This document shows positions 30,000-43,375 of a DNA stretch of 64,000 bases, piece after piece. A program made the translations under genes and the position numbers. The notes under the pieces were generated by a model that did no database searches, was not told the origin of the DNA, and worked only from the letters and a program-made list of their open reading frames with translations. The stretch is taken from assembly GCA_951802425.1 (NCBI GenBank), contig OX637806.1:1054001-1118000 (forward strand), in the 5' to 3' direction. The stretch comes from Clavaria fumosa (Eukaryota > Basidiomycota > Agaricomycetes > Agaricales > Clavariaceae). Every line of letters begins with the position of its first letter. The first letter of the stretch is position 1.

Positions 30000-30740
30000 C
30001 CATCATTGTCATGGTGGTGGTCACGGTGGGGGTCACGGTGGTGGTCACTGCTGTGGCCATCATTGTCATGCACCACTGCCACCCTCGTCATCACTGTGCA
30101 CCACCGCCACCCTTGTTGTCATTGTGCATTGTGCCTGCTGCCACTGCCACTGCCACCCTCATCACTGTCCACCACCCTTGTCATCACTGTCCGCTGCCAT
30201 CCTTGTCACTGCCCGCCACCACTGTCCTCGTCACTGTCCACTGCCACCCTCATCAATGTCCACTGCCAATGCTGCACCACCACCCTTGTCATCTCTGTCT
30301 GCCGCCGTCATTGTCACTGCCTGCCACCGCTGCTGCCATCCCCATCACTGTCCGCCACCCTCGTCGTCACTGTCTGTCACCGCCGCCACCCTCATCACTG
30401 TCTGCTGCCGACGATGCGCTGCCGCCCTTGTCATCACTGTCTGCCACCGTCGTCATCACTGCCTGCTGCCACCACTGCCACTGCTGCCCTCATCACTGTC
30501 CACCACCCTCATCGTCACTGTCCGTCGCTGCCGCCCTCGTCATCACTGTCTGTCGCTGCCACCGCCGCTGCCCTTGTCATCACTGTCCGTTGCCACCACC
30601 GCCACCGCCGCTGCCTCATCACTGTCCACCGCAGATGATGCGCCACTGCCCTTGCCATCACTGCCCACTGCCATCGTCCTCCCTGCTTGCACTCACTGTC
30701 ACTGCTGTCATGCTCACTGCCACTGGTATTATGTAATCTG
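30000..30740. repeat. CCNCTGCC / TCATCACTGTC minisatellite
   Basis: Degenerate tandem units made of ccaccgctgcc, cttgtcatcactgtc and ctcatcactgtccacc. All three plus frames stay open, giving Cys/His/Pro/Leu low-complexity ORFs of up to 277 residues. These are by-products of the repeat and not real proteins. Confidence 0.85.
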
Positions 30741-30779
30741 AAATATTACCATGTGATCATGTTGAACATGACACATCAC

Positions 30780-31025
30780 TCTCAGCACCCTCCATACTCT
30801 CTCCTCCCTCTCTTTCCTCCCTCTCCCTCTCCTTCAGCAGCAGTGGCGGTGCAATGATGGCAATGACGACAACAGGAGCGGCAGCGGCGGCACCCGCACC
30901 CCCCTCTCTCCCCTCCCTCTCCTCCCCCTCTCCCTCTCCTCCCCCTCTCCCTCTCCTCCCCCTCTCCCTCTCATCTCTCCCTCTCCCTCTCCCCTCCTTC
31001 TCTCCTCCCTCTCTCCTCTCTCCTC
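30780..31025. repeat. pyrimidine-rich (CTCCCTCT)n tract
   Basis: Nearly pure C/T on the plus strand in ctccctctcc units. A second copy of the same tract lies at about 31350-31460, a third at about 32770-32885 and a short one at about 33310-33355. Such homopurine-homopyrimidine tracts can form triplex (H-DNA). Confidence 0.85.
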
Positions 31026-31459
31026 TTCTCCCACCCCCCAGAGATGATAATGGCGGCGATGGGTGGGAACCACCAGGTGTGCCCCCCCCACCTTTTTTTC
31101 GTTTCTGTTTTCTTTTTTTTGTTGTAAATTTACTATTTACAGGGTAATGGACAATGGCGGTAATGACAGACAGCAACCATGGCAATGATGGCAGTGGCTC
31201 TCCCTCTCCCTCTTTTCCCTCTCCCTCTCCTTCAGTGGCAGCAGCAGCAGCAACACCGGGTGCGCCCTCCCCTGTCTTGTTTCATTTTCATTTCAATTTT
31301 TTTTTTCCATTCCACTATTTACAGGTCAACAGACGGCAGTGGCACCCTCACCCCACTCTCTCACCCCTCCTCCCTCTTTCTCCTCCCTCCCTCTCCTCCT
31401 CCCTCTCCTCCCTCTCCTCCCTCCCTCTCTCCTCCCTCTTCCTTTCCCTCTCTCTCTCC

Positions 31460-31900
31460 TCCAGCAATGACGATGATGGTGGTGGCAGCAACAGCAGCAG
31501 CATTGGCAGTGGCAGCAACAGTGATGGTGGCGGTAGCAGTGGACAATGACGATGATGGCAGCATCAGCAGCAGCGGACAATGGCAGCAGCAGTAGCAGCG
31601 GATGACAGCAGCAGCAGTAGCAGCGGATGACAGCAGCAGCAGCAGCGACAGTGGCAGGCGGTGGCGGCAGTGGTAGCAACAGCAACAGCAGCGGGCGGCA
31701 GCAGCAGCGACAACAGTGGTGGGTGGTGGTGGCAGCAGTGGCAGCAGCAACAACAGCGACGGGCAGCAGTGGCGGCATCAGCAGCAATAGTGGCAGGCAG
31801 TGGTGACGGGCAGCGGCAGTGGCATCAGCAACAACAGCGGCAGGCGGCGGTGGCGGCAGCAGCAGCAACAGCAGCAGCAACAATGGCCCAGGCCCCCCAC
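31460..31900. repeat. CAG/TGG trinucleotide-type array
   Basis: Long run of cag, cgg and tgg units (agcagcagcggcagtggcag and relatives) with all frames open. Similar shorter stretches occur at 32480-32640, 32700-32760, 32890-33000, 33060-33145 and 33215-33300, interleaved with the intron-like modules. Confidence 0.85.
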
Positions 31901-31989: not shown

Positions 31990-32160
31990 AAGCACCATCT
32001 ACATAGTTCTACATAGTTCTACATAGAAAGGCCTGTATCTATGTAGTTCTACATAGAAAGGCCTGTATCTATGTAGTTCTACATAGACCAGGAAGTTGTC
32101 TATAGGTTCTATGGGTTCTACAGGGTCTATGTAGATCTACACAGTCTACTGCAGTATCAC
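31990..32160. repeat. palindromic ctatgtag/ctacatag array
   Basis: Repeats of gttctacatagaaaggcctg and tatctatgtagttctacata, in which ctacatag and ctatgtag form short inverted repeats and aggcct is itself palindromic. Related text (ctatgcagtactatgtag) appears near 29900-29930, on the other side of the array block. Confidence 0.7.
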
Positions 32161-34739
32161 CCCTGGTTTGCTGATGACTGCTGGTCACTGCCACTGGTCA
32201 CTGCTGCCACTGTCACTGGTCACTGCCACTGCCACCACTGGTCACTGCTGCCATCACTTGTTGCTGGTCATTGTGGTGTGTTGGACTTCAAAGAAATTCC
32301 AATGTGAGATCACATGATCCCATGTTGAACTTTGTTGAAGTCTGATGCTTGCTTGTTCACACTCTGCCCCTTGCTCCTCCCCATTCTTCCCTTGCTGCCC
32401 ACCATCTCTGATTCTCTATGTTTGGTTGCACTCACTCCCCACCAAACCTGAGGAACCACTAGAGAGTGGCTGCAGCACCCAACAGTGAGTGGTGGTGATG
32501 GCAACAAGCAACAGTGGTGGCAGCGGTGACCAGCAGCAGTGGCACAGCAGCAGCAACAGCCACAGTAGCAGCAATGGTGGGCAGCAGCAACAGTGGCAGC
32601 AGCAACAGTGGTGGTGGTGGCAGTGGCAGTGTCGGCAGTGGGTGGGAATCACCAGGTGCACCCTCCCCCTTAGCTTATTTACAGGGTAACAGATGGCAGC
32701 AGACGATGACAGTGGCAGTGGGTGCAGCAGTGGCAGCAGTGGCAATGACATGGGTGACAACGATGGCTGGCAGTGCCCTCTCTCCCCCTCTCCCTCTCTC
32801 CTTCTCTCCCTCTCCCTCTCTTCTCTCTCTCCCTCTCCCTCTCTCCCTCTCCCTCTCTTCTTTCTCCCCCTCTCTCCCTTCAAGCAATGACAGCAATGGT
32901 GATGGCAGTGGCGGCTGTGACCAGCAACCAATGACAGCAGCGGCAGTGGCAGTGGTGGTATGACCAGTGATGGTGACCAGTGATGGCAGTGGCAGTGACA
33001 GGTGGGAATCACCAGGTGCACCCTCCCCCATAGTTTCATTTCACTATTTACAGGGTAATGGACAGTGGTGGATGATGACAGATGACAATGACAATGGCAA
33101 CAACAATGATGGTGGCAGTGGGTGTGGCAGCAGCAGCAGTGGCAATGGGTGGGAATCACCAGGTGCACCCTCCCCCATTTTCATTTTCATTTTCATTTCA
33201 CTATTTACAGGGTAACAGACAGCAGCAGACAATGACAGATGATGATGGCAACAGCAACAATGACAACAGCAGCAGCAACAACATGGGCGATGACAATGGC
33301 TGGTGGTGCCCCCTCTCCCTCTCTTCTCTCTCCCCCCTCTCCCCCTTCCCCCAAGCAATGATGGCGATGATGACAGCAGCAGTAGCAGCAGTGACCAGCA
33401 ACAGTGGCCTCTTGCTTCCCACATGTCTTCAAACCTGAGGCTCCATGTGGAGTAGTAGCCCTTGTAGTGACTGCAGTGTGAATCTCTCCATATTTTGGTG
33501 ACTGACTCCTGATATCTCCATCTCTGAAGATCAAATGTTGTCTGAATGTGTATCAGCTAGGTTATTAGGATGACAAGCATGTGTTCATGGCAGAGGGGTA
33601 CTCAGACAGTTATGATGCTGTTTTGAGGCTGATTGAGGAGATGAAGGGAAATAAGTATCATTGGGATAAGTTCTGTTCGGCACAAAAGACTTGGGTGCAG
33701 AATGCAGGGTATGTATTTTATTATAATGACCTTCACTGTTCTGGTCTTGTTTTGCCAGAGTCTGAACTGGTTTGAGGAAGAAGCATGGAGATTCTGGAAT
33801 GGCCCTCATTTTGAATTGAATATTACTGCATATACATATGCCTTGTACATACATATGCCTCATACACAGTCCCTTTGAAATTGGAGGCAATTTTCTCTAT
33901 TATTGGTTGGGATATCAATCTAAAAAGTGAGGGTGTGGTGAGCACCTGCAGGTGTGATTGACTATAAGGCCACTATGAAGTGCTATAGAGGGTAGCTGTA
34001 ACTATGTACCACTCTATAGATGATGTGGACACTATAAATTGCTCTAAATTTGAGACCTCTCTAGGGCTGCTATGCTGCTATGATAGCTATAGTGAACCTA
34101 TATAGTACTGAATAGGTAAGTCAGTTTTGCTGATGAATGTTGATATTGTTCCCCCAGTGCAGTTTGGACTAATCTGAGCTAGCAAGGTTCAAGACCACAA
34201 CTAATGCTTACTAAGAAAGTGATGGGAATGAGGATGTGCACATCTGCTTCCCCATTCCCACCATGTCAGCTACCTGTCTTTTCATAAAAAGTGAGCTTTT
34301 CGTGGCAGCATTGTAGTATTTACTTGTCAAATAGCTTGCTGTTGAATTTATACACAGATCTTTGTCTCTACCACCAGTTTTGGTCATGGTTCAACTCACT
34401 GAGGCTGAAGCCTTGCAATGCATGGAACTTCTGTCATGGAACATGGTGTGTGCTGTCAGACATGCAGACCCTCAGCATAACGACCCAGTGTCTGATGATG
34501 AAAATGAGGGCAAACCCCCAGCTGATGTGGATCTGGGCGAAGATGGAGGTGAGGATGACATAAGTGTTTTGCACAGGCTCCTGTTAGAGGCCCTCAGAGC
34601 TGTAATGAGACTTGCAGTGCTAAAGGACCATGAGGTCTTGCCCAGCATGGGTAGTAAGGAAGGTATAAACCTTGGGGATTATGTAATCTGACCCTCAGCC
34701 ACAGGTCATGTGACCTTCCAACAGCTCCTCTTTGGGATG

Positions 34740-35500
34740 GCTTTATGTAAGCAGTCCTAACAGGGCCAACACAAACCAACTTATGGATAGTGTCTAGGCT
34801 GATCCCTCCATAATAACTCATCCACATGAATAGCATGTTGGCCAACATGAACCAGCAAATGGATAGTGTCTAGGCCAATCTTTCCATAATAACTCATCCA
34901 TGTGAATAGCATGTGGGCCAGCATAAGTCATCCAGATGAGTAGCATGTGGGCCAACACAAACCAACTTATGGATAGCATCTAGGCCAATCCCTCCATAAT
35001 AACTCATCCATGTGAATAGCACGTGGGCCACTCTGTAATAATGCTCTGATGTGAATAACATGATGGCAAGCATGAAGTGGATGATGCTATTCACATCATC
35101 ATGCTATTACATAGGGGTTGGCCTTGACACTATCCATAAGCTGATTTATGCCAGCCTTTATGTTACATACATGCAAGGTTTTTTATGGAGGGATGGGCCT
35201 AGATCCTATCCATAATTCAGTCCATGCTGGCCATTATGCTATACACATGGACATTTTATTATGGAGGGATTGGCCTAGATGCTATCCATGTTGGCCCACA
35301 TGCTATTCATGTGGGTGAGTTATTATGGCAGGATTGGTCTAGATGCTATCCATAGCTTGTTTTTTGTTGGCCCACATGCTACTCATGTGGGTGAGTTATT
35401 ATGGAGGGATTAACCTAGATGCTATCCATGAGTTGGATCATGTTGGCCAACACACTATCCACATAGTTGCATTATCATAGAAGTAGAAGGGTTGGTCTAG
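34740..35500. repeat. inverted tandem array (two arms, opposite orientation)
   Basis: The left arm (about 34740-35050) repeats a unit with taactcatccatgtgaatag, catgtgggcca and tggatagtgtctaggccaat, at spacings of roughly 75-110 bp. The right arm (about 35100-35500) repeats the reverse complement: tggcccacatgctattcatg, tgggtgagttattatgg and agatgctatcc. The turn lies near 35060-35100, where gatgtgaataacatgatg faces ctattcacatcatcatgc. Transcripts through it would fold into long hairpins. Confidence 0.8.
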
Positions 35501-36125
35501 ATGCTAAACCATTCATAGTGCTTCTATGCCATTCTGTGTGCCATTTTCCCATTCAGAATTAAACTGCTGTCATGTGCTCAACTCTGTTTCTGTTGTCCCT
35601 CTACACTTCATTTCTTCACTCCTCAGACACTTCAACACTTCATTTCTTCACTCATCACTCCTCACTTTTACATCATGAAGCAGTCAAAATGCAGAACAAA
35701 GATCCTTGTGGAAGAAGTTGAATGGGTTCCCTACACCAACTGATGTGGATTCCAGCACCATAAACCAGAAACTGTGAAAAGAGTTCAAAACAAACCTCCC
35801 TCTGCAAGTCCCTCAAAACACAGCTGCCATGTTTCTCCAATCCCCTCCCCCACATTTCTGGACCAGCCCATGCATGATGGTGTTGCAGAAGAACACATAC
35901 CTGGCTGGAAAACTAAAGTAAGGGAGACCCAATAAATTGAGGACTAGTTAAAGACCCATGGCATTGCCACTTAGCAAAGCACAGAATGATCATCAATAAT
36001 TTATTGATAAAATTATTATTTGAAACACAACAAAACAATTACATATCCAGACATGATTTAACAATAGAATACCTGAAGTTTACTTGTTAGTCTTAGAAAT
36101 ATTTGACAACTTACTGAGCTTCAAG

Positions 36126-36600
36126 TTACTCATATGATCCCAGCCCATATTTCTGGATAGCAGTTTGGGTGTTCCTTTGGTCAGGTGGAAAGATGACTTT
36201 AATTCTTTTACCATTGGTGCACCTGGTTAGTCCAACATAAAGCTGTCCATGGGAGAAGACTGGAGTTCTGAGGTCAAGCGCAACATGTTTAACTGACCAT
36301 ATTGATGGTCATGGCAAATACAAGGCAAACAGGGGATTGGTGATGCCTGAGTTTGATGGGCAATTGCTCATTTGAGGGTTCCAGGATGACCCTTGGAATG
36401 AAGGTGGTCTGACCTGCATGGTCCCCTCCCAGTATGCAACACTCCAGGACATGCTGACTCATCCTTACCAAAATCAAATGGATGCCATTGCAAAGACCAT
36501 TGTAGTGTCCAGATTTCATATGAGCATGAGTGGGCAACCCTTCTTCAAGGCTAAATGAGCCAAAGACAATTCTGAGGATTTGATAGAGTTCAAAAATTCA
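36126..36600 (-). pseudogene. decayed Helitron PIF1-like helicase C-terminus
   Basis: Minus-strand text follows the conserved end of Helitron/PIF1 helicases: LAHLALKKGCPLMLI; then in the next frame LCNGIHLILVRMSQHVLECC, FIPRVILEPSN, LPIKLRHHQSPVCLVFAMTI; then after another shift VKHVALDLRTPVFSHGQLYV and GLTRCTNGKRIKVIFP, stop TAA at 36126-36128. The SxGQS-like motif after AMTIN is damaged at the second shift. At least two frameshifts make it inactive. No Rep domain was found nearby. Confidence 0.7.
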
Positions 36601-36639
36601 ACTGGGTATGGATCAAAGTTTGCATCTGCTTCTCTCTCC

Positions 36640-37300
36640 ACATTGACAGAGTCAGCACTGTGGTAGACCTTCTCCTCCCCTGGAAATTCATGAAAGAGTC
36701 CATAGCTCCAGAGTCTATGAGTGCATTCATCCAGATATTTTTGTGCATGTCCATTGTTATGAGTTTAACCAGTAGGGTGAGCTTGCACTTCTCCCCTTTT
36801 TCTATAGTCCTGGCTAGGGGTTTGTCCCACTCTTCCTCTATGTGCCTTTCCAGTCCCTTTGTTATCAAAACCTTTTCATTTGTATCAATTACATTTCTGC
36901 CTGCCCTGCAAGCAGGGACTAGAAACTTGGGTCCCATTTTGGTACTCAGTTGGACCCATCTAGAAAATCCTGTTTGACCTTTCTTCACCTTGGCTGCATA
37001 CTTTGCTGCTTCCACTTCTTGCTTCTGCTAGATCTCCAAGTGATCCCTCATTGCTGCCACTTCCTCCATCTTTTCATAGTCTGGGCATCCTTGGTTACTC
37101 TGGGTATCCATCTCTGAGCACTTTGTGTCATCATCCAGATCAATGAGTGATCCTGGGTTCTGCATCAGACCTCCTGCTGCTGGCATTTGTTGGGGAGGGG
37201 GCATTCATTGGCATAGTGTCTCAGCTTGTCACAGTTGAAACATTTGATGTTTGCCTTGGAGCCCTTGTTTTGGTCCACTTGCATCAAATCACTGTATCCT
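36640..37300 (-). pseudogene. retroelement gag-like zinc knuckle and protease-like relic
   Basis: On the minus strand a CCHC knuckle CFNCDKLRHYANEC lies at 37201-37242. Downstream come a Lys-rich stretch (AKVKKGQTGFSRWVQ) and an aspartic-protease-like active site, IWMNALIDSGAMDSFMN, with DSG near 36708-36716. The order knuckle then DSG is that of Ty3/Gypsy-type gag-pol proteins. No reverse transcriptase or LTR was recognised, and the frame ends at about 36590, against the Helitron relic on the same strand. Confidence 0.55.
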
Positions 37301-37549
37301 TGGGGTCACCACAGTATTTTGGACACTGGCTCCTGCCTTCTCAAATTCACACTTGCTGAGGCAGAGGCACAATCTATGTGTTGGGTTGCCAAGCTTTTGG
37401 TGGTACCTGTTGTAGGTACCACAGTTTATTCAGGAGGGGCTGCTGTTTTGGCATCAGGTTTGCTGTAAGTGCTGTTTCAAAATATATTACAGAAGCTGAT
37501 TATGGTCTTATAGCACTGCTATCCCCCTCATTGATAATATCAGGGCTGT

Positions 37550-38345
37550 CTTGGGAGGTCAACCACAGCATCCCAACTGGGAACCTGTCCCTACTCAGGC
37601 AGCTTTTCATATGGTTCAAGCCAGGGGCCTGTGTACATTCCACCCAAAGGAATTGTCTCACCGAAGGGGTGAATATGCAGCATTGTCAATGGGTCCTTCA
37701 TATGGTGGAGGACAACAGGTGCCTTGTAACCTGCAGATCTCTGAGCCAACAAGAATTGCTCACTTCAAGCCCTGCTATAAAAAGGATTGCAGGCTTTGCA
37801 TCAAGTATGTGTTTGTATCATGACAAAGTCTATTCTAATCATTCCCTAGGTGTCTTTGCCATATGGGCCCCAAAGCTTTATAGATATTATGAGGAACACC
37901 AAGATGCTCTATTCAAGAATCACCCTACCTTGATGAAGAATTTCCCAAACAGCATATGGACAACCTGCACATTCAACTTTGGTCCCAGGACTGTCACTTT
38001 TGACCAAACTGTGATGTTGCAAATCTGGCTTTTGATTGGTGTGCTGTTACAGCCCTTGGAGACTTCAACCCACAACTTGGTGGACATCTTGTTCTCTGGG
38101 ACCTCAAGACTGTAGTCCAATTTCCACCAGGAGCTACTATCCTCATTCCTTCTGCAACATTTTGACATTCAAATGTGGACATTGCACCAGGTGACACAAG
38201 AATGTCTTTCACTCAATACACAGCTGGTGGTTTATTTTGATGGATGGACTGTAATTTCCAGACTCTTTCAAACTTCAGGAACATCCCATTAATAGTCTTG
38301 CCTATGATGAAGCATCAAAACATAGGTGGAAAATGGGTTTAGGTC
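37550..38345 (+). pseudogene. decayed TET/JBP-type dioxygenase (transposon cargo)
   Basis: Reading across frames gives the fungal TET/JBP-like pattern common next to KDZ transposons in Agaricomycetes. It shows RRGEYAALSMGPSYGGGQQV; IKRIAGFAS joined by an intact intron (37808-37858, GTATGT to CCCTAG) to VFAIWAPKLYRYYEE; SIWTTCTFNFGPRTVTFD; then WCAVTALGDFNPQLGGHLVL, WDLKTVVQFPPGATILIPSA and MSFTQYTAGG. The iron HxD site is damaged: Gln stands in for His and two extra bases shift the frame. In-frame TGA codons at 38163-38165 and 38238-38240 stand where relatives have Arg. The family call is from memory of the pattern. Confidence 0.65.
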
Positions 38346-38582
38346 TCTTTTCTCACTTACATGACCTTGTTAAGTAATATGGATACATACTTCTTGTGCA
38401 AGTCTATAGTCCTTTAAGTGTGGCTATGAGGCATAATAATCAAACCACTGATTTGGTTTTAATTGGTTGTGCTGTATTATGCCTTATTCATGTCTATTAT
38501 TCAACCAAGGGTTCTGCTGATGTTAGTCAGCTTTTCCTAGTCACTTTTGGGTCTTATAATCTAACAAACAATCAGAACTTTA

Positions 38583-39475
38583 CACTCTCCCACCCATTCC
38601 TCAGGAGTCCTCAGGAGTCCTCAGTACTCCTCAGTACTCCTCAGGAGTCCCCCAGGGTCTTCATCCACTCCTCAGGACTCCTCACCCACTCCTCAGGACT
38701 CCTCATTCACTCCTCAGGACTCCTTGCTGCTCCTAGGGACTCCTGAGGAGCAGTAAGGACTCCTGAGGAGCAGTGAGGAGTACCAGGGAGTCCTGAGGAC
38801 TCCTCACTACTCCTTACTACTCCTCACTACTCCTCACTACTCCTCACTACTCCTCACTACTCCTCACCACTCCTTACTACTCCTTCCTCACCACTCCTCA
38901 GGGCTCCTCACTACTCCTCACTACTCCTCAGGACTCCTTACTCTTCCTCAGGACTCCTGAATGGTCCTTGGTCCTCCCTGTCATTCCTCATGGTTCCAAG
39001 GACTTAGTATATAAATGACAAAGCATAGAATGGCATCTGAATGCAATTGATTGCCTTTAGTATGTGCTCCATGTTTTGCATTTGGTCACAAATACAATCT
39101 ATTATGAGAATGACCATTTAGCTTAGTGGTAATGTATATGGCTTGGTTTGTCTGGAGGCATGAGTTCAATTCTGAGAGTTGCCAAAACATTTATGACTCC
39201 TGACTGCTCCTCAGGACTCCTTACTACTCCTCACTACTCCTCACAGAGCACTGAGGACTCCTGACTGAGTTGGGACTCCTGAGGAATAGTGAGGAGTCCT
39301 CACAGCAATTTGGCTGGGAGGAGTCCTGACTGGCTCCTCAGGAGTCCCAACTCACTCCTCAGGAGTCCCAACTCACTCCTCAGGAGTCCTCACTACTCCT
39401 CACCTGCTCCTCACTACTCCTCAGTACTCCTCACTCACTCCTCAGGAGTACTGAGGACTCCTGAGGAATGGGTGG
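38583..39475. repeat. CTCCTCAGGAGT palindromic satellite in two blocks
   Basis: Blocks at about 38583-38970 and 39190-39475 are built of actcctcaggagtcc and cactactcct units. The core ctcctgaggag is an interrupted palindrome, so both orientations occur within each block (cctgaggagcagtgaggag near 38745). The DNA between the blocks (38980-39185) is unique and holds the tRNA-like sequence. Confidence 0.8.
39112..39183 (+). pseudogene. tRNA-like relic (possible SINE head)
   Basis: The stretch contains an A-box-like tagcttagtggtaa and, about 40 bp further, a B-box-like gagttcaattc, which differs from the GTTCGANTC consensus by the change expected from CpG decay. Length and spacing fit a tRNA, but the ends (gacca, gagagttgcc) do not pair into a good acceptor stem. 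It sits between two satellite blocks inside the CpG-poor island. Confidence 0.45.
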
Positions 39476-41511
39476 GTGAGTGTAAAGTTCTCATAATATT
39501 AGGGCACATACCTGGAGTTCACACAAAAGATGTGAGGCTCCAGATACAGTGATGTGAGGGATATTCAAGCAGGTGGTGCACCAACAGGCACCAATTGAAA
39601 TGGAGTTTAAAGTAAATGTACTAGTCTGCAAATGGTTGGATGTTAGCCAAACATGCTAAATGTCCATCAATATTTTAGAGATGAAGAAATGTTAGAAGTG
39701 TGTATCTCCTTTCTCCTGTCTACATAGCCTTTGTGCTGATGATACCAACTGTAGGTAAAACTGCACTACAGATCCTGTGAGTGTACTGTGAAATGAGGAA
39801 CTCATTTTCTGACAATTTGAGCTGCTACTAGGGGATGAATGGACTGATTGCTTTAAGCTGGAGAAAATCAAGCTACCTGGATCACTGTACCTCAGCATTA
39901 CAATGATGACAGGAGAAGTGGTGGACCACCATGAGTAAGTTCTTTGACACCCATCTCATGGTCAAACATATAAGTAATTATGCACACTAATTTCTCTCTG
40001 TTCAGCATCATATCTATCACATCACACACCACAATCCTCTCCTCTGCTGACATGCCACTGAACAAACACAACAAACCCATTTTCACAGTGTCTTTTCCAC
40101 TGCCAATGTCACAGGTTGGCTCAGTCACTGGGCCTGGCACCTGTTGTGGTTGTCATTCTTCCTTGTGGCAGGTTGGTAGGGGTGGAGCCAATGGACAGGT
40201 CATGGATGCAGAGCAGGAGCCTGGTATGGGACACACAGACTCAAGCACAGACATGGTGGTTGGGACAGTGGCAGGACATGGCCTGGTAGTGACAAGGAAG
40301 TATACCAACTACAGGATGAAGATGGGATCTGATGAGTACAAAAATTAAACTACTAACTGTAATTGTTCAGATGTTTCTCAAGTTCATCAGCTGTCCAGAT
40401 GATGAGTCCAGGCCAGAGTTAGTTTCTGAGTTGCCCAAGGCAACCAGGAACTGGTGTGGACATCAGTTGGTGCCTTCTAAGGTACACTCTTTGAGTCTGC
40501 ATCAGATTGTACAATCAAAGTCCAGCTCACCAGACCTAAGCCCAAAGTGCCAGAACCACATATGAAGGTCTAGAGACTGCTGGAGAATACTTTAGTGGCA
40601 CAGGCATGACAAACTGTAGAGGAGTTCATGAAATGAAGATTGAAACCAGCAATCATGCAATAGAAACAAGACACAAGTGAAAGAAACAATATTACAACCC
40701 AACTCAAAACAGATACTGTGGCTGTGAATTTCAGCTACTGTACCTCCCTCTATCAGGGCCACACCACTAGATCTGCTAGTAGACCCATTGCTTGTCTTCT
40801 TACTGGTATTGACCAGCTTATTAGCTCTTGACTACTTGGCATGTCTCTATTACAATTTAACATGGATCTTGTGGTATAAATGACAAACCCATACATGGCA
40901 CAAAGACAGACTGAAAACCTCAATAAAGGCTCAAATCACCCACTCTCATCACACATTGGCAGGGTCCCCCAAGCATAACAAAGGTGGCAGGATCTGGATA
41001 ACTACACACATAACATAGCACAGGTCAACTGTAAATCTATTCAGCTGTAGTGTAGTACAGGTTACAGTAACTGTTAGTCCTTGACTACAATACTCTACAA
41101 GAAAGTATGTCTTGATTTTCTTGACTGTCTTGACCAATTTGTCAAGATGATCAAGATGCTTCAATGTTTGCTGATGCAACCTAAATATATGCATTTTTGA
41201 TGGGATCTAGAATGGCTCCAGATCTGAGGACATTGCACATCATGCATCACAAAATAAGTGTTGTGGAATGGCAGGACGCAGGGTGGTGAGCTGCAAGTTA
41301 GCATCACCACCGCAGCTCATTTGTTAATAATGCATACAGACACTTGCATCAGGTATTCCCACCAATATCCTCCAATTTCATTGGTCATAGGTGGTGTTAC
41401 ACTCAACAAGGGCCTGGAGATGAGAGACTAGAGTACAACATAAACAAATTTCTTGGATGCAATCATACTTCTCCGCTTTTTTCATTTGTTGCCTTTCAAC
41501 AGTGCGAACAC

Positions 41512-41575
41512 GCACAATGCAGCTATATTCCAGAGTGGGTCAGGCACAATGCAGCTATATTCCAGAGTGGGTCAG
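41512..41575. repeat. 32-bp perfect tandem duplication
   Basis: The 32-bp unit at 41512-41543 (gcacaatgcagctatattcc and on to gggtcag) is repeated exactly at 41544-41575. The second copy contains the predicted stop codon (tca at 41572-41574) of the minus-strand hexokinase-like gene. Confidence 0.9.
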
Positions 41576-43375
41576 GCATCAGATTGTGTGAAGGCCAACT
41601 GATTATACCAACCTCCAATAGCTTCGTGCCAGCGGTCGGCATCAGTCAATAACTCGACTTGCCTCTCGACATCACTACCAAGAATGGCACTCAGTGACTG
41701 TCGTAAGCGGGTCTCAAACTGATGATAGAACATAGCCATCCTGGAGATGGGATATAGTCAGGGTGAATGGTAGAGAAATCCAGATGTTTACTGACGTACT
41801 CGCCATTGATAACCACACGGAACCTTTTCTCCCCTCCTTCTGAAAATCCAACCCTCGGCTGTGCATAGCCGTATTGGATAATAGCAGCAGCGATCGCGCA
41901 ACCGCCAAGCTTAGCTGCCCGAGTTGAAACCTGTTCACATGCCCATCGCACAATCTCCGCATCTTGGTCAGATATAGCATCCGATTCGAAGCCAAGAGAG
42001 TCCACAAGAACCTGCTTGACAACTTCAAGTGAGTTTGCCTTCTCGATCAAGGACATGTGCAGCGCGTGAAATCCGCCATGGGCATAAGGCACATTAAGCT
42101 GAGCTGTAGACAAGCCATTGAAGAGTATTGGTGGAGAGTGGTTGACCAAGGACATAATGAGACTTCGTGTGATTTCACCGATATACATCCAAGAAGTCAT
42201 TTTCTCGAATATGTGGAAACCTGGGTCTCCGGATTCTCGGTCAACTTCGTCATCGTAGGGGGTGATCGGCAGGACTGTTCGCTGAATTAGAGAAATCAGC
42301 ATGTTATTTAGTTTGCACGATTGCGAGGACCCACATTATTAAAAGCACCCCATTCTGTGTTGACGACCATTTGACCGCGCTCGTTGGAATTCAATTTTGT
42401 TATTTTGATAATATCTTCCAAATATGCAGCATTTGTTCCAGCTCCAAATATCACCGCTGGGATCATTTCAGTATACTTGAAAAAGTGATAATATTGTTGA
42501 GTTCACCAAGATCGCAACTCCCATATTTATAACATTGGGATAGCCATATTGCAACAGTCTATTAAAACATAAGGATTAAGAAGGCTCTTTTTCGCACCTG
42601 ATAACTTACATCGTTCACCAGTGCGGCGCATCGCACGTGTACTTGTTTGCGGTCGAACGCATCTTGAAGGAGCCTTACAACGTCTTCACCTTCACCATTC
42701 TTTACCTTCAACCCTTTGGCCCAAGCAATAAGTTTTGCCTGGTTCAACGATGTCATTTCTACGGGAAAGGGGAAGACCAGTCCAATGGGCAACGCCTCAT
42801 TGGCATTTCCTGAGAGGTTGTTTTCCTTCAAGAACCCATCGACACAATCGGCCATGAAATCTGCGCACGATTAGAAAATAGATCAGTGTGAAATTCATAA
42901 CCAACCGAACAAATCATGGGCATCTCCACTCGTCAAGTGTTTTGGAATATTGAATAACTTGTGCAGTTGCCTGACCTTCCTCTGACCGTCCAAATTGACC
43001 TCCGAAACTCGACTAAATTGTTTCGACGTGTTACGAATAGCAGTTGAAGAGTCTGCTTGTTTCTTACATCGTAGTCAAATTAAGACCTAGAGTAAGAAAA
43101 GTGCTGTAGACAATTTCAGCGGCGGCATTGCTCGTGAGTCGTGAAGAGTCGTACCCTTTCTCAGTCCCATCAGGGATATGAGTGACGAAGCTCGGCCTGA
43201 ATCATCCCTCGGTATGGCATAAGTACTAGAATACTAGACTTACTTACCCCATGGTCACTTCATGATGCCACTCTCCCAGTCCAACGCGAAAGTCTTCGAC
43301 AATTTGCTCAGTGATTTCAATGAGGCGATTATCGGGCACTTCAAATAGCCTAGTTATCTGGTCCGGTATGCTCAT
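41572..43375 (-). CDS. hexokinase-like protein with degenerate active-site motifs
   Basis: ATG 43373-43375 gives MSIPDQITRLFEVPDNRLIE and a normal hexokinase start. Splicing gives PSFVTHIPDGTEKG, then TFLTLGLNLTTIRVSEV where hexokinases have TFLALDLGGTNLRV. Next come ADCVDGFLKEN, GLVFPFPVE, AALVNDTVAIWLS (catalytic Asp kept, following GT lost), VIFGAGTNAAYLED, VVNTEWGAFNN and KMTSWMYIGEITR. The C-terminus reads VELLTDADRWHEAIGG where the adenosine loop DGSGxGAA is expected. Stop TGA at 41572-41574. Fold and length are kept, so it is likely expressed as a non-catalytic or regulatory hexokinase-like protein. It adjoins the transposon island. Confidence 0.8.

Follow-up and report, generated by a model that had tools for sequence, protein, structure and literature searches.

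A decayed TET-like dioxygenase gene at the end of a Helitron-like element and the likely CpG origin of its stop codons

We analyzed a stretch of 64,000 nucleotides from Clavaria fumosa (contig OX637806.1, positions 1,054,001–1,118,000 of the forward strand; hereafter, the window) and compared it with the genome, searched as 48.8 Mb in 17 contigs. At window positions 37464–38541 lies a 5′-truncated TET-like dioxygenase pseudogene with three frameshifts. The locus appears to be a decayed remnant of the 3′ end of a Helitron-like element whose cargo was a divergent TET/JBP-type 2-oxoglutarate dioxygenase. We consider it very probable that, taken as a whole, the locus records a decayed Helitron-borne TET-like gene whose stop codons came from CpG hypermutation of repeats, likely by methylation and deamination. 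The features are as follows.

37464..38541, plus strand: putative 3′-terminal remnant of a Helitron-like element with a TET-like dioxygenase pseudogene inside; other copies are similar to it from ~37464 up to the CTAG at 38538–38541 (T next)
37465..37513, plus strand: 49-bp intron (GTAAGT...TATAG) preceding the exon that starts TAIPLID, from alignment with the C10, C3, C1, and C12 copies
37514..37804, plus strand: exon TAIPLID...RIAGFAS, its frame shifted by two gaps, one after 37744 and one after 37751, that together amount to 11 bp
37805..37849, plus strand: 45-bp intron, GT..AG intact; the C10 counterpart is also 45 bp
37850..38377, plus strand: final exon, carrying 2 surplus bases at the HxD site (~38006), two TGA codons, and a 1-bp gap after 38279; the gene's own stop position is TAA 38375–38377
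38163..38165, plus strand: TGA; CGA in 4/4 close copies (Arg before HSN)
38238..38240, plus strand: TGA; close copies have CGA (2), TGA (1), and CAA (1); Arg before Trp
38511..38541, plus strand: Helitron-type 3′ terminus, consisting of the hairpin GCTGATGTTAGTCAGC, TTTTC, and CTAG, then T
32001..41276, no strand: CpG-depleted block, 15 CpGs where 473 are expected

Architecture and damage of the window copy

A DNA search of the genome recovered, besides the window, copies at C1:3051981, C10:2905558, and C3:2231725 (87% each), two matches of one interrupted copy at C12:787483 and 788347 (93% and 95%), and a 173-bp piece at C3:4221663, where C1, C3, C9, C10, and C12 are contig labels. Three further relatives with 48–49% identity (C1:5119196, C3:329355, and C9:2962852) emerged from a protein search. 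The copies at C10, C3, C1, and C12 are the four close copies, and eight copies, the window's included, span the second stop codon. The C12 copy (C12:787483–788546) is split by a ~250-bp insert, with a short stretch of gene sequence repeated at its edges.

Alignment with these copies places the three frameshifts at 37744–37752 (–11 bp, in two gaps), ~38006 (+2 bp), and after 38279 (–1 bp). The two extra bases at ~38006 destroy the HxD site, and the HxD...H triad is not intact in the window copy itself. In C10, the counterpart of the first intron measures 53 bp and its splicing yields one open frame; the conceptual protein of the C10 copy matches the window by tblastn at 37515–38288 (62% identity, 1.2e-95, a span in which the stretch between frameshifts is read out of frame) and at 38270–38374 (74% identity, 1.9e-12). 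A preliminary description, made from the letters of the locus and confined to 37550–38345, had recognized a TET/JBP-type relic with one frameshift, a broken HxD site, and an intact 51-bp intron, and had proposed a translated search. That search does match the dioxygenase family, and the HxD site is indeed broken, reading Asp-Gln-Thr where the copies read Asp-His-Cys-Asp. The intron is intact, but 45 bp long, and a second one of 49 bp is readable; the frameshifts are three rather than one, and the feature is wider.

Stop codons and CpG loss

The same description had placed two TGA codons in one frame at exactly the positions listed above, and had taken each to be one C-to-T step from CGA. Both points hold, with CGA found in all four close copies at the first codon and in two of the four at the second. 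Three distant copies carry CGC (one) or CAC (two) at the first position, a CpG-to-CpA relation. Across eight copies, the second codon is CGA in C10, C12, and C1:5119196, TGA in the window, C1:3051981, and C9:2962852, and CAA in C3:2231725 and C3:329355; the CpG is gone in 5/8, window included, and each of the five losses would be a single C-to-T step on either strand if CGA is ancestral. The arginine that had been named as a family feature at both stops is nearly a rule before Trp (57/62 homologues) and no rule directly before HSN (23/62). Counting changes at CpG versus other sites, as had been suggested, assigns 13 changes over 796 sites to the window branch, with 2/5 CpG-context sites changed versus 11/791 others (Fisher p = 0.0024). 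Comparison of the copies indicates that both late stops arose as CpG transitions, CGA to TGA. Weighing against it are the small number of assignable changes, 2 of the 13 being CpG changes, and a second stop in the C9 copy, a TGA where a relative has GGA, which is not a CpG change. CpG decay is also only part of the death of the window copy, because three frameshifts and a 5′ truncation are not CpG events.

A young pair of copies serves as a clock for the process. The C10 and C3 copies, on different contigs, share a 12,365-bp element that is 99.5% identical; 54 differences separate them in 12,360 aligned bases, of which 38 are CpG transitions (22 C/T and 16 G/A), giving a CpG-transition odds ratio of 63 with 241 CpGs present in either element. 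A recount by sequence context finds 37 of the 38: 7 on C10 and 30 on the C3 copy, where 15 C-to-T and 15 G-to-A changes are interspersed. CpG losses are thus about four times as numerous in the C3:2231725 element as in the near-identical C10:2905558 element (30 versus 8, or 30 versus 7 in the context recount), as if decay depended on location. Two stops interrupt the helicase-bearing RepHel frame in the C3 copy, each a CGA-to-TGA change, so that the TET-like gene is not alone in suffering this decay.

These counts also bear on a RIP-like (repeat-induced point mutation) process aimed at CpGs of repeats, instead of slow deamination of standing methylation. Its appeal is that the changes are located in repeats and that CpG or TpCpG hypermutation is described in other basidiomycetes in the available parts of PMC4352252 and PMC4014442; moreover, a CpG-directed process of this kind would leave identical letters, which tells against our preference for methylation and deamination. 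On the other hand, the C3 copy shows C-to-T and G-to-A changes interspersed and no long one-strand tracts, the pair shows no TpCpG preference (12/165 versus 25/317), and transitions at CpA, counted on both strands, make up just 2 of the 54 differences versus 38 at CpG, so that the CpA bias of classical RIP is not seen. A strand-mixed, CpG-specific process is compatible with all of these counts, and we rate a RIP-like origin as unlikely, though it keeps some weight.

The depletion reaches far beyond the gene. CpG observed/expected is 1.01 both in 1000–29000 and in 43000–64000, whereas 37663–41276 has 0 CpGs where 175 are expected, and the flanks of the gene, 36500–37463 and 38542–41276, contain none. 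CpG reappears sharply at 41277, near a gene (41277–42335 region) whose five homologues carry PF03727, which we take to be the hexokinase domain. The idea that TET genes are singled out for decay is rejected, since the whole 32–41 kb block lost its CpGs, the DNA adjoining the gene is CpG-free, and stops of this kind also occur in the C3 copy of RepHel. Of the preliminary proposal, the CpG-to-TpG decay has strong support within the genome; its aiming at the TET gene family does not stand, with the neighborhood and RepHel likewise affected. 

Ordinary neutral decay, with two CGA-to-TGA changes by chance, would fit the mere 13 window-lineage substitutions, and the frameshifts and truncation would have sufficed to kill the gene. 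It sits poorly with the excess at CpG-context sites (2/5 versus 11/791), with one CGA codon whose CpG is gone in 5/8 copies, each explicable by one CpG transition, with the 38/54 CpG transitions of the young pair, and with a CpG loss spanning the whole block; we find it very hard to credit.

Three side features lie nearby. Trinucleotide-like and CT-rich repeats occupy 30008–31900, bordering the CpG-poor block on the left; degenerate tandem repeats with a TCCTCAGGAC-like 10-bp unit occupy 38598–39467, straight after the Helitron-like terminus; and the minus strand at 36590–37027, beside the pseudogene, holds a frame with a DSGA-type stretch that presumably resembles a retroelement aspartic protease.

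Carrier, identity, and constraint of the dioxygenase

The carrier of the window copy looks like a Helitron. Helitrons end at the 3′ side in a hairpin followed by CTRR and a T, and the hairpin-CTAG-T terminus is common to the window and C12 copies, whose flanks diverge immediately beyond it. In C10, the dioxygenase lies downstream of RepHel, near the 3′ end of an element with an open RepHel frame of 2102 amino acids, of which the 1842 scanned comprise DUF6570, Helitron_like_N, and PIF1. The C10, C3, and C1 elements end otherwise, in another hairpin and then GCCTTA-T; given this difference from the termini of the window and C12 copies, the dioxygenase gene may be shared by two Helitron-like carriers. 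A link of the window copy to KDZ transposons, put forward earlier, is unsupported: its relatives are in a Helitron with RepHel, and the window ends in a Helitron-type terminus, although no search aimed at KDZ was made.

Several observations speak against a Helitron carrier. The C10 RepHel protein has no matching stretch in the window (E 1e-3), and, as this match is lacking, the Helitron identity of the window copy leans on the 31-bp terminus and on relatives with a different 3′ end. With up to three mismatches, the terminus occurs at 39 places in the genome, 18 of them with a Tet_JBP match 6.1–7.7 kb upstream on the same strand; 5 of the 39 sites lie within 12 kb upstream of Tet_JBP matches. 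The same downstream flank is present at 8/12 sites inspected, so there the terminus sits inside a larger repeat.

The identity of the enzyme emerges mainly from the predicted fold of the family, which matches CcTet, NgTET1, and TET2 above other dioxygenases and ranks TET-type enzymes and CMD1 above FTO, PHD2, and AlkB relatives. The triad is nearly invariant among 62 homologues (H 62/62, D 61/62 with N in one, distal H 62/62), and Pfam Tet_JBP matches 18 of them at E up to 1 (best 9.5e-7). The species named among the best 120 of 1784 homologue matches are, we take it, Agaricomycetes. An hhalign comparison of the window family with a Tet_JBP protein of the same genome aligns the HxD and distal His regions, at a probability of just 55% (E 1.2e-4). 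Sequence searches are otherwise sparse: the family profile meets only two, unrelated, proteins among PDB sequences (E 0.0024 and 0.13) and does not match CcTet at E 10, where a control Tet_JBP protein of the same genome scores 1e-21. Across the genome, a Tet_JBP search points to 64 places, and copies of the window gene are not among them. Tblastn with the frames of 30 Tet_JBP loci gives only weak, chance-level matches to the window gene; as about half of these loci were read in the wrong orientation, the result is not used as evidence. The Pfam scan of three window pieces matched no family (0/3 for Tet_JBP), which counts against the assignment. A TET/JBP-type identity, as first described, is therefore supported by the fold of the family and not by a Tet_JBP match in the window pieces.

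The enzyme could instead be a general 2-oxoglutarate/Fe(II) oxygenase with a non-DNA substrate, captured by a Helitron. Helitrons capture host genes, no activity is known for the family, and PF13640 matches weakly in 20/62 homologues versus 18/62 for Tet_JBP. The fold ranking, the divergence under constraint (dN/dS 0.13), and the better Tet_JBP E-value (9.5e-7 versus 6.3e-4 for the best PF13640 match) all point away from it, and we hold this alternative to be improbable, though not negligible. A TET-like enzyme is the reading we retain.

Ratios of nonsynonymous to synonymous substitution (dN/dS), by Nei-Gojobori with gapped and stop codons dropped, are 0.128 for C10 versus C12 and 0.163 for C10 versus the window. 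Because these values are low, the gene appears to have been constrained through much of its divergence, despite the present broken state of the C12 and window copies; a caution against this is that one of the genes compared, C12, is a broken copy and that the C10 gene has an uncertain start. Within the C10 element, CpG observed/expected is 0.07 in the dioxygenase region (4, with 55 expected) and 0.39 in RepHel (96, with 248 expected). The only CpGs of C10 exons 2–3 are the two CGA codons, and C1 retains one CpG spanning two codons and one CGT, such that the last CpGs of the gene are largely CGA arginine codons, that is, stop-codon risks. On the simplest reading, CpG was lost where tolerated and retained where CGA-to-TGA would be lethal. 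A bolder reading takes the CpG purge as an adaptation: a TET-like anti-silencing gene, stripped of the target of its enemy, might be expressible from a methylated element and resist further CpG decay, remaining vulnerable chiefly at its CGA arginine codons, a proposal that we regard as doubtful. The purge is not family-wide, because the distant relative C1:5119196 is not CpG-free (observed/expected 0.63). Extra CpG loss was likewise not seen as a general TET trait: the cores of 30 Tet_JBP loci, of the 64 listed, range from 0.00 to 0.71.

Proposed history and relation to known systems

In the history that we propose, the gene would have diverged between copies under purifying selection; its best-preserved relative, C10, is part of a Helitron of this genome. 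The enzyme most likely oxidizes methylated bases in the transposon, which would aid its escape from silencing. Repeat copies would lose CpGs through C-to-T changes on either strand at ~60 times the odds of other sites, a figure that comes from a single pair. Methylation of repeat cytosines by the C5-methyltransferases of the genome, followed by deamination, is the most likely cause; methylation is plausible because C5-methyltransferase matches occur at C3:3896599–3898470 (with a BAH domain in a neighboring frame) and C8:3160171. Once selection relaxes, the first CpG hits would tend to turn CGA into TGA, because better-preserved copies are nearly CpG-free except for arginine CGA codons, and comparison of the copies indicates that this gave both window stops. 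The frameshifts and truncation would be separate events.

The locus thereby offers a clean gauge, internal to the genome, of CpG hypermutation in an apparent agaricomycete, and an HxD-bearing, Helitron-borne TET-like enzyme exposed to it. It raises a testable question: do TET-like enzymes of transposons protect the elements that encode them against methylation-driven decay, and are CpGs removed from their genes by selection?

CpG-type repeat mutation in basidiomycetes has been linked to Masc2-like enzymes and deamination in the accessible portion of PMC4352252. The present case resembles that of Microbotryum and Rhizoctonia solani AG8 in its C-to-T changes at CpG, and differs from both in showing no TpCpG preference. 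For AG8, the part of PMC4014442 consulted takes up an excess of TGA among stop codons; changes in AG8 are reported to fall in genes as much as in repeats. Here, CpG loss is near-complete over 9 kb.

We regard the window family as a new HxD TET-like type, neither PE nor AG of Kojima 2025. No description of an HxD Helitron-borne type was found in the literature searched, a scope outside which most subscription literature falls. As far as the available text of PMC12730594 goes, PE-type TET/JBP proteins, including that of Helitron2 of Agaricus bisporus, are likewise very divergent TET-like proteins for which Helitron carriage is possible in Agaricales; their hallmark is HxE, whereas the window family has HxD in 61/62 and HxN in one. 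The AG-type TET/JBP proteins of Kyakuja/Zisupton transposons, with CcTET, described in the same portion of that source, share with the window family the HxD...H triad, the TET fold, transposon carriage, and occurrence in Agaricomycetes, whereas the window family has no CcTet sequence match and is carried by a Helitron.
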